Source: a virus
Virus record (IMG/VR): IMGVR_UViG_3300009285_002043
Coordinates: 1 to 21,720 of that record
Length of the DNA: 21,720 bases
Direction: 5' to 3' (one strand)
Shown: positions 16,551 to 20,988 of the stretch, piece after piece
Numbering within the stretch: the stretch's first letter is position 1
How the letters are laid out: every line of letters starts with the position of its first letter
Translations under genes and position numbers: made by a program
The notes under the pieces: model-generated
The model's input: only the letters and a program-made list of their open reading frames with translations
Databases searched by the model: none
Told to the model about the DNA's origin: nothing

Positions 16551-16800
16551 GTGTACGAGTTTCTCGCGGCATGGCATGGCCTGGCAAGGACCTGGCTTGG
16601 CTTGGCAAGGACTCGGACATGGACCGGGCAACGCAAGGCAAGGGTAGTTGAGTTGAATCGTGGTAGCAGCCAACGCCCCATGGGCGATGCGAGTTTTCGC
16701 GGCATGGACCGGGCGTGGCCGGGCGGGACAAGGGCAGGGCTGGACAAGGGCGGGGCTTGGACGAGGACTAGGCAACGCAAGGCAAGGGAAAGGCAGTTGA
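16551..16800 (+). repeat. Intergenic pentamer repeat element R1 (two units)
   Basis: This gap between portal and the next gene holds two units of a dispersed element. Each starts with a short GAGTTT hairpin (CGAGTTTCTCG at 16556-16566; GCGAGTTTTCGC at 16689-16700), continues as a GGCNN-type 5-bp periodic tract, and ends in an 18-base tail found at 16627-16644 and 16771-16788. Between units lies the hairpin CGCCC-CAT-GGGCG (16674-16686). The gene at 16815 has an open frame through it, but that translation is Arg/Trp/Gly nonsense with no ribosome site. Confidence 0.75.
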
Positions 16801-16814
16801 TAGGAGGGATCTTG

Positions 16815-17087
16815 ATGGCAACGTTCGACTCTAAAATGACAGTGACCGTAACGCCAGAACTGGTCGCGCTCGTGGATCGTATTGTGGCGGCTATCGGCGA
16901 GTTGGCGCAGGTCGTCGATGCTCGGACCTGCCCAGAAGCTTCGTGGTACAGATATGAGCTGAGTGCGGCGCAGCGAGTGGCGCAGTACGAGGAGCAAAAG
17001 GAGAAGGCAAAAGCCGCGAGGCCCGAGCCGGCCGCGCCAGTGTCCCCCTCGCCGTTCTACCCAGGGAGCGGTTTTTTCGATGGATGA
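16815..17087 (+). CDS. Hypothetical small structural-module protein
   Basis: A 90-aa protein starting at ATG 16815 with AGGAGGG at about 16802-16808. Residues 8-40 are a hydrophobic-acidic helix (TVTPELVALVDRIVAAIGEL); the C-terminal third is basic then Pro-rich. It lies between portal and the minor head gene, but no family is recognised. It overlaps the following membrane-protein ORF by 8 bases. Confidence 0.6.
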   Translation: MATFDSKMTVTVTPELVALVDRIVAAIGELAQVVDARTCPEASWYRYELSAAQRVAQYEEQKEKAKAARPEPAAPVSPSPFYPGSGFFDG

Positions 17088-17247: not shown

Positions 17248-19035
17248 GTGGCTGAGGCAATCATCTCGGAAGAGGAACTCGACGCCATGCTCGCATATGC
17301 GTTAGCCGACGCGGGCCTGCGCATTGCAGATATCTCGAAAGCTGACCTCGCTGTGTGGGTGGCTGGCATGATTGACCGCGTGGAGAACGCGGCCAAACTT
17401 ATGGAGGCAGAATATTACTCTCAGATGGCATCGGCTATGACGGGGGCGGCAGACCCGGCGCAAATTGAGGCGGCTCGCGCAATGTGGCGTGACCAGGCGC
17501 GGATACAGGCAAAAACGCTGACGACAAACATGATTCAGGCCGATCTCAAAACACTGTCGCAGACAATTGCGCAGGGGATAAAGGATGGCGCGCACCCATT
17601 CGAGGTGGCGCGGCGGCTTGATATGGTGAAAGGCCTTGACTCACAGCGGGCGGCGGCACTGACCAAAAAGTACGAGTACTGGAAATCACAGGGGCTGTCC
17701 GAGGAAGTGCTCGAAAAGAAACTCAATCGAGAGCGGGAAAGACTCCTTCGCGAGCGGCGCGAAACGATAGCGCGCACTGAGATGCGGCAAGCGCACGCAG
17801 AAGGCGAAATGCAGACGGCTCTTGCTGAGGGCGCAAAGTACAAGGTGTGGCAATCTACAGGCGACGCGCGCGTGAGCGATGAATGCGCGGCGAACGAGGC
17901 TCAAGGACCTATCGACGCAAAGGAGGCTTTTAGTAGCGGAGCACAGCACCCTCCCGCGCATCCGAGCTGTTTAGTGGGTGAAACGGCCGTTTTTGCCCCG
18001 GATAAGATCGCCGCATTTATCGCCACTTACAGAGGCCCTGTATTCGATATTACCACTGCCTGCGGCAGTGGGTTTACCGTCACCGCGAATCACATGCTCG
18101 TGACGCCCAACGGTTTTGTCAAGGCGCAATCTGTCTGCGAGGGTGATTATATACTCTACTGCCCCGTCATTCAGCGGACAGGATTTTGTAGCCCATATAA
18201 TGATCGGCGTCCATCCCGCATTGATCAGGCAATCGAATCGCTTGCGGAATCGCCGGGCGTGTCTATTCGTAGAGTGCCATTGTCCCCCGAATACCTCCAC
18301 GGCGATGGGCGGTTCTTGGATGGCTATATCGACATTGTAGCGCCCAATGGCTTTTTGCGTGGAGACATTAACTCCGCGCCTATTGAGCATGTTGACAAGC
18401 TGTGTTTCGAGAGGACTGATGCCAATTTGCTTGGACTCGATTGTCTGCGCAATTTTGTGTCTATGCTCGTCGCTCTGCGTGACGCCACGGACGGCGGTGT
18501 GGGCATTCGCAGTGAGAGCTCTGCGTTCGTCAGGAGAAAGGCGCTCCATCCGCAGGAAGTTTGCATCGCTTCCGTTGCGTCGGCAAATGCTGTTTTCTCT
18601 GAGGATTCTGGATATAACAGATCTGCTGGTGCAAAAACGCTTAGCAATGCTCAGCTCGGACTCTCCCTTCCCATATCGAAAGATGACAGCTTCGGAGTCA
18701 ATGTCTGTCCGCGAATATTGAAATCTCGGGATGCCGTTGATGCGCAAAACATGATCCACCCAACATCGAGATGTTCCGAGCGCATTCGCAATGTGCTTGG
18801 TCGATTCTCCGGACATATAGCGATTACACGCATTGTCCGGATAGTGCAACGGGAATTTTTTGGGCATGTCTTCGACCTCCATACGTTGAGCACATTTTAT
18901 CACCTAGACGGAGCACTATCAAGCAACTGCAGGTGCTCGGTGAGCTGGATCGCGTCGGACTCTGCGCGTGACAGGGAAAAGGGGCGGGCGGCGCAGCGTG
19001 CTGAGCAGACGGCGGCGGCGCGCGATGGCGAATGA
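17248..19035 (+). CDS. Minor head protein (SPP1 gp7 / Mu F-like) with in-frame intein
   Basis: A 595-codon ORF starting at GTG 17248 (GAGG about ten bases upstream). Residues 1-240 and 561-595 together form a 275-aa head-morphogenesis protein. They join as HPPAHPS / CRCSVSWI, restoring the HPxCRC motif typical of this family, preceded by RTEMRQAHAEG and STGDARVSDECAANE. Residues 241-560 are the intein. The protein is thought to sit at the portal vertex and aid DNA entry or capsid assembly. Splicing is required to restore the motif. A homing endonuclease runs antisense through the insert. Confidence 0.88.
   Translation: MAEAIISEEELDAMLAYALADAGLRIADISKADLAVWVAGMIDRVENAAKLMEAEYYSQMASAMTGAADPAQIEAARAMWRDQARIQAKTLTTNMIQADLKTLSQTIAQGIKDGAHPFEVARRLDMVKGLDSQRAAALTKKYEYWKSQGLSEEVLEKKLNRERERLLRERRETIARTEMRQAHAEGEMQTALAEGAKYKVWQSTGDARVSDECAANEAQGPIDAKEAFSSGAQHPPAHPSCLVGETAVFAPDKIAAFIATYRGPVFDITTACGSGFTVTANHMLVTPNGFVKAQSVCEGDYILYCPVIQRTGFCSPYNDRRPSRIDQAIESLAESPGVSIRRVPLSPEYLHGDGRFLDGYIDIVAPNGFLRGDINSAPIEHVDKLCFERTDANLLGLDCLRNFVSMLVALRDATDGGVGIRSESSAFVRRKALHPQEVCIASVASANAVFSEDSGYNRSAGAKTLSNAQLGLSLPISKDDSFGVNVCPRILKSRDAVDAQNMIHPTSRCSERIRNVLGRFSGHIAITRIVRIVQREFFGHVFDLHTLSTFYHLDGALSSNCRCSVSWIASDSARDREKGRAAQRAEQTAAARDGE
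17971..18867 (-). CDS. Antisense homing endonuclease (Vsr/PD-(D/E)XK-like) nested in the intein
   Basis: A 298-aa protein on the - strand. The start is the ATG at 18865-18867, with GGAGG (- strand) at 18876-18880, eight bases away; a longer reading from 18903 would begin upstream of the predicted transcript start. Residues 16-46 and 66-95 are two resolvase-type HTH segments (STKHIANALGTSRCWVDHVL; SELSIAKRFCTSRSVISRIL). Residues 111-142 resemble the NUMOD3-type DNA-binding motif. Residues 152-250 are a nuclease core: SPLETQLV (Glu154), YNVDIAI (Asp180), IAVEVFGGQWH (Glu191, His198), then AGWTPIIIWA. This is the fold of very-short-patch-repair-like homing endonucleases. The last 35 residues are antisense to the intein N-terminus. 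The TAA stop is antisense to the intein's second codon. Confidence 0.82.
   Translation of the reverse strand: MPKKFPLHYPDNACNRYMSGESTKHIANALGTSRCWVDHVLRINGIPRFQYSRTDIDSEAVIFRYGKGESELSIAKRFCTSRSVISRILRENSICRRNGSDANFLRMERLSPDERRALTANAHTAVRGVTQSDEHRHKIAQTIESKQIGISPLETQLVNMLNRRGVNVSTQKAIGRYNVDIAIQEPPIAVEVFGGQWHSTNRHARRFRKRFDCLINAGWTPIIIWATKSCPLNDGAVEYIITLADRLRLDKTVGRHEHVIRGDGKPTAAGSGNIEYRASVSGDKCGDLIRGKNGRFTH
18894..18922 (-). promoter_or_regulatory. Promoter of the antisense homing endonuclease
   Basis: On the - strand: TTGATA (18922-18917), a 17-bp spacer, TAAAAT (18899-18894), with TGA before the -10 forming an extended -10 element. Five of six bases match consensus at both boxes. The start point would be near 18887, then GGAGG at 18880-18876 and ATG at 18867. 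The -35 box begins five bases inside the intein end, so the whole transcription unit moves with the intein. Confidence 0.7.
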
Positions 19036-19270
19036 GTTTACCCGGCTCGGCCTGGCCGGGCTCGACGGGGCGAGGACTGGGCATGGCATGGCTCGGGCAA
19101 GGCCCGGACTCGGCAGCGCAAGGCAAGGGTAGTTGAGTTGAATTGAACAGTAGCCAGCGCCCCATGGGCGATGCGAGTTTGTCGTGGCGCGGACCGGGCG
19201 GGACCGAACGGGGCTAGGCGGGACAAGGGCACGGACTTGGCGTGGCAAGGCGTGGTAGTAGTTGAATTGT
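19033..19270 (+). repeat. Intergenic pentamer repeat element R2 (two units)
   Basis: Begins at the TGA stop of the minor head gene (TGAGTTT at 19033-19039). It contains a GGC-rich 5-bp periodic tract, a tail at 19112 onward nearly identical to that of R1, the hairpin CGCCC-CAT-GGGCG at 19158-19170, a second GAGTTT head, and a second tract. A 24-base stretch at 19226-19249 is identical to 20930-20953 in R4. No gene is visible in 19036-19335. Confidence 0.75.
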
Positions 19271-19282
19271 GGCGTATCGGCG

Positions 19283-19322
19283 TATAATGGCGGTGGTTAA
19301 CGGTCAACGGTCAACGGTCAAA
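19283..19322 (+). promoter_or_regulatory. Possible promoter and four heptamer repeats
   Basis: A perfect -10 box TATAAT lies at 19283-19288; the best -35 candidate, TTGAAT at 19262-19267, is only 15 bp away. Directly downstream are four 7-bp repeats: GGTTAAC (19295-19301), GGTCAAC (19302-19308), GGTCAAC (19309-19315), GGTCAAA (19316-19322). They would lie in the leader just before the AGGAGA ribosome site of the gene at 19336. A repressor or activator site is inferred. Confidence 0.45.
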
Positions 19323-19926: not shown

Positions 19927-20121
19927 GTTTCTCGGCGCATGGCTCGGCCGGGCAAGCCAAGACGGGGCCAGGACGCAGATCGGGCAACGCAAGGCAAGGG
20001 TAGTTTAATAGACACGACGCAGCGGCCAACGCCCACGCGGGCGATGCGAGTTTCTCGGGGCCGGGCGGGGCTCGGCACGGCCGGGCAGGGCTCGGCAAGA
20101 CTGGGACCTGGCAACGCAAGG
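19924..20121 (+). repeat. Intergenic pentamer repeat element R3 (two units)
   Basis: Starts at the TGA stop of the preceding gene (TGAGTTTCTCGG at 19924-19935). The 18-base tail is identical to R1 at 19983-20000. The hairpin is CGCCC-ACGC-GGGCG (20030-20043): the stem is kept while the loop differs from R1 and R2. A second GAGTTTCTCGGGGC head, a GGC tract and a partial tail up to 20121 follow. AAAAGGAG then leads to the ATG at 20141. Confidence 0.75.
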
Positions 20122-20140
20122 AACCAAAAGGAGATCGGTC

Positions 20141-20869: not shown

Positions 20870-20959
20870 CAGGTAGCAGCCGGAGCGTTTTTCGAGGCCG
20901 GACAGGGCCCGGCCCGGCCTGGACTGGGCAGGGCACGGACTTGGCGTGGCAAGTCAAGG
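20870..20959 (+). repeat. Intergenic pentamer repeat element R4 (one unit)
   Basis: A single, more degenerate unit: a GAGCGTTTTTCGAGG head at about 20883-20897, a GGCCC/GGGC tract, then a 24-base stretch at 20930-20953 identical to part of R2. It ends where a possible promoter begins (20960). No gene is visible. Confidence 0.65.
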
Positions 20960-20988
20960 TTGACATATTGTCCCCAATAGCGTACATT
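20960..20988 (+). promoter_or_regulatory. Possible promoter with a small palindrome in the spacer
   Basis: TTGACA at 20960-20965, a 17-bp spacer and TACATT at 20983-20988 (four of six). TATTG/CAATA arms lie in the spacer at 20966-20979 and could be an operator. The start point would fall at about 20995, leaving almost no leader before ATG 21001, so the gene just downstream could not use its GAGGTGG site. I treat it as tentative. Confidence 0.35.

Follow-up and report, generated by a model that had tools for sequence, protein, structure and literature searches.

A phage intein whose homing endonuclease gene appears to lie on the opposite strand

Introduction

Can one stretch of phage DNA encode a protein-splicing intein on one strand and, nested wholly within it, a complete homing endonuclease gene (HEG) on the other? 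The question is raised by an interrupted head gene in IMGVR_UViG_3300009285_002043, a complete IMG/VR virus record that we analyzed over its whole length of 21,720 nucleotides (the window). An intein with such an antisense HEG had been predicted here from the letters of the sequence, without database searches. In the following, we examine the host gene, the two products encoded by the element, the strand on which selection acts, and the occurrence of the layout in other genomes.

Results and Discussion

A minor head protein gene is interrupted by an intein

The window carries tailed-phage genes for a RecT-like annealing protein, an exonuclease, a DnaB-like helicase, a large terminase, and a portal protein. 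The original prediction also named a minor head protein as the host of the intein, which the Phage_Mu_F match (PF04233) bears out (Table 1). The host protein comprises 595 aa with the intein, which occupies residues 241-560 of the open reading frame product, and is predicted to retain 275 aa after splicing. The phrog_15127 head-protein profile also covers the intein region of this gene. G-rich, TGGC-rich degenerate repeats are found in intergenic DNA at 16551-16830, 19040-19300, 19930-20130, and 20900-20960; their common motifs are GGCAACGCAAGGCAAGGG and GCCCCATGGGCGATGCGAGTTT, and the repeats are not present in the intein.

Table 1. Features of the head gene, the intein, and the antisense HEG (window coordinates).
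Feature	Position	Strand	Support or remark
Host gene, MuF/SPP1 gp7-type minor head protein	17248..19035	+	PF04233, E 7e-8; phrog_15127 head protein, E 1.7e-27
Intein (putative splicing element), 320 codons, Cys1 to Asn320, then Cys+1	17968..18927	+	Alignment with relatives (blocks A, B, F, G); solved-intein profile match; AlphaFold/Foldseek
Intein block B, TVTANHMLV	18079..18105	+	Alignments; opposite strand encodes HEG tail motif VIRGDG
Linker motif EYLHGDGRF	18283..18309	+	Antisense shadow of HEG active-site strand PPIAVEVF
Intein block F, GHVFDLHT	18862..18885	+	Sequence; His codon CAT at 18865-18867 antisense to HEG start
Antisense HEG (putative), 298 aa, ATG 18867, TAA 17971-17973	17971..18867	-	PF18741; 3r3p profile; AlphaFold
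HEG helix-turn-helix 1, aa 9-43	18739..18843	-	PF19575 weak match; model helices; match to CRISPR repeat-binding protein 2lvs
HEG helix-turn-helix 2, aa 58-91	18595..18696	-	PF02796 weak match; model helices
HEG PD-(D/E)XK-like nuclease domain, aa 152-248	18124..18414	-	E154, D180, E191 intact; Foldseek
HEG Shine-Dalgarno GGAGG	18876..18880	-	Sequence; family consensus; antisense of block F Leu codon CTC
HEG sigma-70-like extended -10 promoter (putative), TTGATA-17-TAAAAT	18894..18922	-	Scan; family enrichment; inside intein

C1, N41, H42, and N320 are invariant in intein alignments of 53 and 42 sequences, and the +1 residue is Cys in the window and in most family members. The window residue that precedes the terminal Asn is Ser, not His. 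Pfam Intein_splicing matches the window only weakly (E 0.003, below the cut-off), and in general the window taken singly reaches only modest E-values with public family models. A profile of the intein family, when compared with solved inteins, matches the Mtu RecA intein (2imz) at E 2e-7, and Foldseek aligns the AlphaFold model of the 320-residue intein with the same intein at a probability of 1.00. The model is confident at the ends and disordered in the middle (residues 129-268); it is also confident at residues ~77-128. The structure modeling drew on the window and on the IMG/VR and genome loci, without the phage-record rows. Overall, the predicted + strand intein is upheld, from Cys1 through the T..NH of block B and the GHVFDL of block F to Asn320-Cys+1, as is the Hint match expected for it, and all coordinates that had been proposed are correct. 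Residues and modeled fold support assignment as a class-1 intein, with splicing itself inferred. The locus departs from canonical full inteins in one trait: no endonuclease domain lies in frame in the segment that separates block B from block F, and the nuclease is encoded by the - strand.

An open frame within a phage gene need not imply splicing. In phage ShiLan, an HNH endonuclease is hidden in a methylase gene, on the same strand but in a shifted frame, without splicing (PMC11855218). That element resembles ours in that a homing nuclease is concealed in a phage gene whose frame is kept open, and it differs in strand, frame, nuclease type, and the lack of a splicing domain. If our locus were of this kind, the + strand would not be a splicing intein and the HEG would have inserted in frame as a tolerated loop, as proposed for ShiLan. 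This reading is very hard to sustain given the conservation of Cys1, the block B NH, block F, and Asn-Cys, the dN/dS values of 0.10-0.32 at the two ends of the element (see below), and the match of the model to intein structures.

The opposite strand encodes a PD-(D/E)XK-like nuclease

The antisense frame (coding part without stop, 17974-18867) matches MTES_1575 (PF18741) in Pfam at E 2e-10. The HEG profile (alignment A1) matches the homing endonuclease I-Bth0305I (3r3p) at E 3.7e-7, and also the DUF559-like protein 3hrl. Because A1 is diverse and lacks a conserved stretch, the closer sub-alignments A2 and A3 were used for profile scans. The AlphaFold model of the window HEG has a mean pLDDT of 88.5, and Foldseek places it with 3hrl, 3r3p, and 1vsr (Vsr) at a probability of 1.00 (E 0.007-0.03). 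Among 66 sequences, D180 and E191 are invariant and E154 is nearly so.

These matches bear out the complete 298-aa nuclease and the Vsr/PD-(D/E)XK-like core that had been read from the - strand. The two helix-turn-helix segments are likewise retained, on weak Pfam matches plus model helices. The claim of a NUMOD3-like motif is not supported: Pfam finds no NUMOD3 domain in the HEG, and the segment is simply helical in the model. Profile and model both support a relationship to the PD-(D/E)XK homing endonuclease I-Bth0305I; cleavage of the empty site is an inference. I-Bth0305I (EDxHD) and the DUF559/Vsr-like nucleases share this core and a phage homing context, but those genes are intron-borne or lie between split-intein halves, whereas the present gene is nested in antisense orientation in a single contiguous intein. 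Dassa et al. are said to have described, in 2009, such "fractured genes", in which nuclease genes lie between the halves of split inteins; these are alike in that a nuclease is associated with inteins.

Selection switches strands within the element

In the register shared by the two frames, + codon position 1 is - position 3, and the position at which substitutions fall therefore reveals the coding strand. Since the window has no close relative, these selection tests rest on its family relatives and do not cover the window. In the middle of the intein, 14 independent close pairs differ at 648/200/337 sites at + positions 1/2/3, a pattern found in 14/14 pairs (p 2e-23). The corresponding counts are 119/42/203 for the intein ends of the same pairs and 164/101/528 for the flanking extein, the latter being those of an ordinary + gene. 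Nei-Gojobori dN/dS for these pairs is 0.96 on the + strand (neutral) and 0.24 on the - strand in the middle, 0.32 and 0.66 at the N end, and 0.10 and 1.14 at the C end. Short transition zones, from residue 63 to ~78 and from 45 to 24 codons before the end, are constrained on both strands.

A second signature comes from codons that the HEG avoids. TTA, CTA, and TCA, each of which would stop the + frame, occur 0 times in 155 nested HEGs, whereas codon usage in the corresponding head genes would predict 913. The 11 AT-richest members (<45% GC) also contain 0, against 132 expected, while 12 occur in a free-standing nuclease relative (Acinetobacter phage P1068), which has no intein frame to keep open. 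This absence indicates that the sense strand is selected to stay translatable, as splicing requires. Taken with the substitution patterns, it points to selection on the middle of the sense strand for an open frame and not for its amino-acid sequence. The overlap of intein and HEG exceeds chance in the zero-stop, codon-position, and start-codon tests (the last described below).

An apparent objection is the + linker motif DFHGDG, which is almost invariant among family inteins. The linker could be a genuine domain conserved among inteins, with the antisense frame merely a by-product of the codon-on-codon register, which is often open in GC-rich DNA. AlphaFold is confident at this region, and a shortened intein with a truncated HEG in a Thiotrichales genome retains the motif, both of which are consistent with a real domain. 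In the 14 close pairs, however, dN/dS at the DFHGDG sub-region is 1.05 on the + strand and 0.16 on the - strand. The motif is thus best explained as the antisense shadow of the nuclease strand AVEV, and the AlphaFold confidence for this + segment is probably misleading. A by-product would also leave unexplained the nuclease matches of the antisense protein in profile and fold, the stop-free frames of members below 45% GC, and the conserved start codon, Shine-Dalgarno site, and promoter, and we find it scarcely credible. Dual coding of the region on both strands, considered because of the AlphaFold confidence, was set aside on the same + value of 1.05. The case cautions that a motif conserved in the linker of intein entries (such as DFHGDG), or a segment that AlphaFold models with confidence, can be an antisense shadow.

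Gene signals of the HEG are written into intein codons

The start, ribosome site, and stop claimed for the window HEG are all present within the intein, and similar arrangements recur across the family. The block F His codon is CAT in 101 members and CAC in 14, corresponding to an ATG or GTG start, compared to 159:229 for other histidines (p 4e-20). The Leu that follows this His is encoded by CTC in 102/131, and the family Shine-Dalgarno consensus is GGAGGT at -13 to -8 from the HEG start. The HEG stop lies within the intein in 138/150, most commonly at intein codons 2 or 3, and the intein Leu2 codon is TTA or CTA in 42/55. Approximately one-quarter of the family has no His at the block F start position, which leaves the HEG start uncertain in these members.

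The claim of an antisense promoter stands only in part. The sequence is present, but finding one such match in the window is no more than chance predicts (0.9 expected), and the promoter is credible only through enrichment in the family. Antisense sigma-70-like promoters scoring at least 10/13 occur in 49% of the family compared to 6.7% in a synonymous-codon-shuffle null (p 9e-27). The -10 box usually lies 26 or 45 nt upstream of the HEG start. A scan that covers no other promoter types gave no convincing sigma-70-like site upstream of the HEG in Gordonia Vivi2-type members.

The two-strand layout is widespread

Translated searches retrieved ~120 phage records per strand, mostly identical records for both. 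They include Salmonella and Escherichia Guernseyvirinae, phages of Gordonia, Pseudomonas, Klebsiella, Vibrio, Aggregatibacter, and Acinetobacter, and a Helicobacter prophage. Scans of IMG/VR gave 293 relatives by intein and 283 by nuclease, 80 of each of which were kept, and a genome scan added 21 loci from Actinobacteria, Firmicutes, Chloroflexi, Cyanobacteria, Proteobacteria, and others. An HEG and both intein ends were found in one antisense open frame at 195/204 loci, representing 155 distinct inteins, and 195/195 of these share a single codon-on-codon register. The layout holds whether loci were fetched via the intein or via the HEG. Of the nine exceptions, six are cut by a contig end or have no detected C end (L024, L073, L118, L132, L163, L169), two are weak matches without a nuclease (L123, L124), and one is P1068. 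In P1068, the free-standing nuclease relative (L017:1333-2226) is convergent with and adjoins an intein-less MuF gene; it is possibly an ancestor or an escapee. Inspected intein-bearing records annotate only the + gene, sometimes as intein-containing. Because annotation pipelines report just the sense frame, the layout has escaped notice.

Host genes other than MuF are also occupied. Rctr197k (L205:1608-3014, fetched later) has an antisense-HEG intein in a cytidine/dCMP deaminase-like gene (PF00383, E 6e-11), whose annotation as head morphogenesis probably stems from the intein. Another antisense-HEG intein lies beside a weak prohead-protease match (L064, PF04586), so that the whole unit has probably invaded a prohead protease gene as well. 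In one MuF gene (L102:2501-4858), two separate sites are each occupied by an intein that carries an antisense nuclease of its own.

Presence and absence of the unit in close relatives

The original prediction called for a clean gap in intein-free homologues. We searched for an intein-free close relative of the window and found none, so clean insertion is seen in family relatives only. Gordonia phage Shivanishola lacks precisely the 948-bp intein of Gordonia phage Vivi2, and the two are 95-97% identical near the site. For fEg-Eco06 and KMB35, two phages of E. coli, the difference is again exact, 894 bp, and lies at a different MuF site. At the MuF site of Vivi2, near-identical Gordonia phages have either no insert or one of three different inteins (Vivi2, Sedona, and Lennon types).

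The Lennon (L208:874-1698) and Barsten (L210) intein is a different one at this MuF site, and its antisense gene is LAGLIDADG-like. The antisense protein has the motif AAYVAAFIDGEGTVTV and matches an I-MsoI chain at E 2.9e-4; its relatives are annotated as endonucleases (E 4e-7). Pfam LAGLIDADG_3, at E 0.26, is not significant alone. Differences in the middle of this intein number 40/3/7 at + positions 1/2/3, the same strand switch. The antisense-in-intein layout thus probably arose at least twice.

These patterns also bear on what the nuclease is for. Free-standing HEGs of phage T4 can exclude competitors, and the nuclease might do another job of this sort (e.g., excluding competing phages) or belong to a free-standing HEG for which the intein is merely a safe place to land. 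The P1068 relative beside an intein-less MuF gene is compatible with such a role. It is difficult to reconcile with an HEG start and stop tied to intein blocks in most members, with the exact presence or absence of the unit as a whole, or with the occurrence of the whole unit in other host genes (deaminase and probably prohead protease). We regard a role outside intein homing as quite improbable and favor homing.

A proposed mechanism and its relation to known systems

The prediction, a splicing intein that holds a complete homing endonuclease gene in antisense, is supported, and we are highly confident that the element is a mobile intein whose functions are split between strands, with a Hint splicing domain on + and a separate homing endonuclease gene on -. 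Both coding layers, selection on each, their nesting, and exact presence or absence of the unit are evident at the level of sequence. With no experiment performed, HEG expression, the cleavage site, splicing, and homing are inferred.

In the mechanism that we propose, the two + strand ends of the element would form the Hint splicing domain, and the + strand middle would be a neutral linker that is read through and leaves with the intein. The - strand middle would encode a separate HTH + PD-(D/E)XK nuclease that has a start, a ribosome site, and a stop of its own and usually also a promoter. Host RNA polymerase may transcribe the nuclease from the antisense promoter, perhaps early and without relying on the late head operon. 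Once made, the nuclease would cut intein-free MuF alleles at the insertion site, repair would copy the intein together with the nested nuclease gene, and protein splicing would restore the late head protein.

Canonical full inteins (PI-MtuI, PI-PfuI, VMA) likewise have a Hint domain, an endonuclease between blocks B and F, and precise insertion in a conserved host motif. Their nuclease, however, is an in-frame domain of the spliced polypeptide, whereas that of the window is a separate opposite-strand gene, and the spliced linker is neutral antisense sequence. Antisense HEGs are established in group I introns (I-DsqI at L2066, also I-DirII), and the opposite-strand HEG of I-DsqI is expressed and cuts the empty site (PMC9548176). 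These introns likewise combine splicing with an opposite-strand homing endonuclease gene, but they splice as RNA, so their sense strand need not stay open; in the window intein, it must stay open through the whole nuclease gene.

The full-text literature searched, intein papers included, describes no antisense endonuclease in an intein, although most subscription papers were outside its scope. The arrangement is therefore likely, but not proven, to be undescribed so far. We consider it probable that self-contained antisense inteins, each with an independently promoted HEG opposite a contiguous cis-splicing intein, constitute a third mode of intein mobility. This mode would have at least two origins with unrelated nucleases and would be found in several host genes, among phages and prophages from several bacterial phyla, with the nuclease made early from host promoters and the intein late with head proteins. 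It would add a layout absent from textbook intein biology, and it opens to experiment how a mobile element can time its nuclease separately from its host gene. The long, recurring sense-antisense overlap, with selection measurable on each strand, also offers a natural experiment on overlapping genes, and the family is a source of many uncharacterized nucleases and compact inteins.

Decayed copies and additional variation

A homing cycle predicts decay of the nuclease, and broken or truncated HEGs are found as expected. In a Brasilonema locus (L115), the antisense gene is broken and the + frame is open; in the Thiotrichales genome (L120), the antisense HEG is truncated and the + frame is again open. 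The HEG of the window phage might itself be real but decaying, which would make its intein a passive passenger. Although it cannot be dismissed, we consider this unlikely: the window HEG is full length, its catalytic residues, Shine-Dalgarno site, and start are intact, and purifying selection acts across the family. The Brasilonema gene also contains a second intein end upstream of the decayed antisense-HEG intein (L115:857-3745). Elsewhere, one antisense nuclease (L109:173-1768) has apparent extra tandem copies of the HTH unit, a duplication that may enlarge the DNA-binding part.
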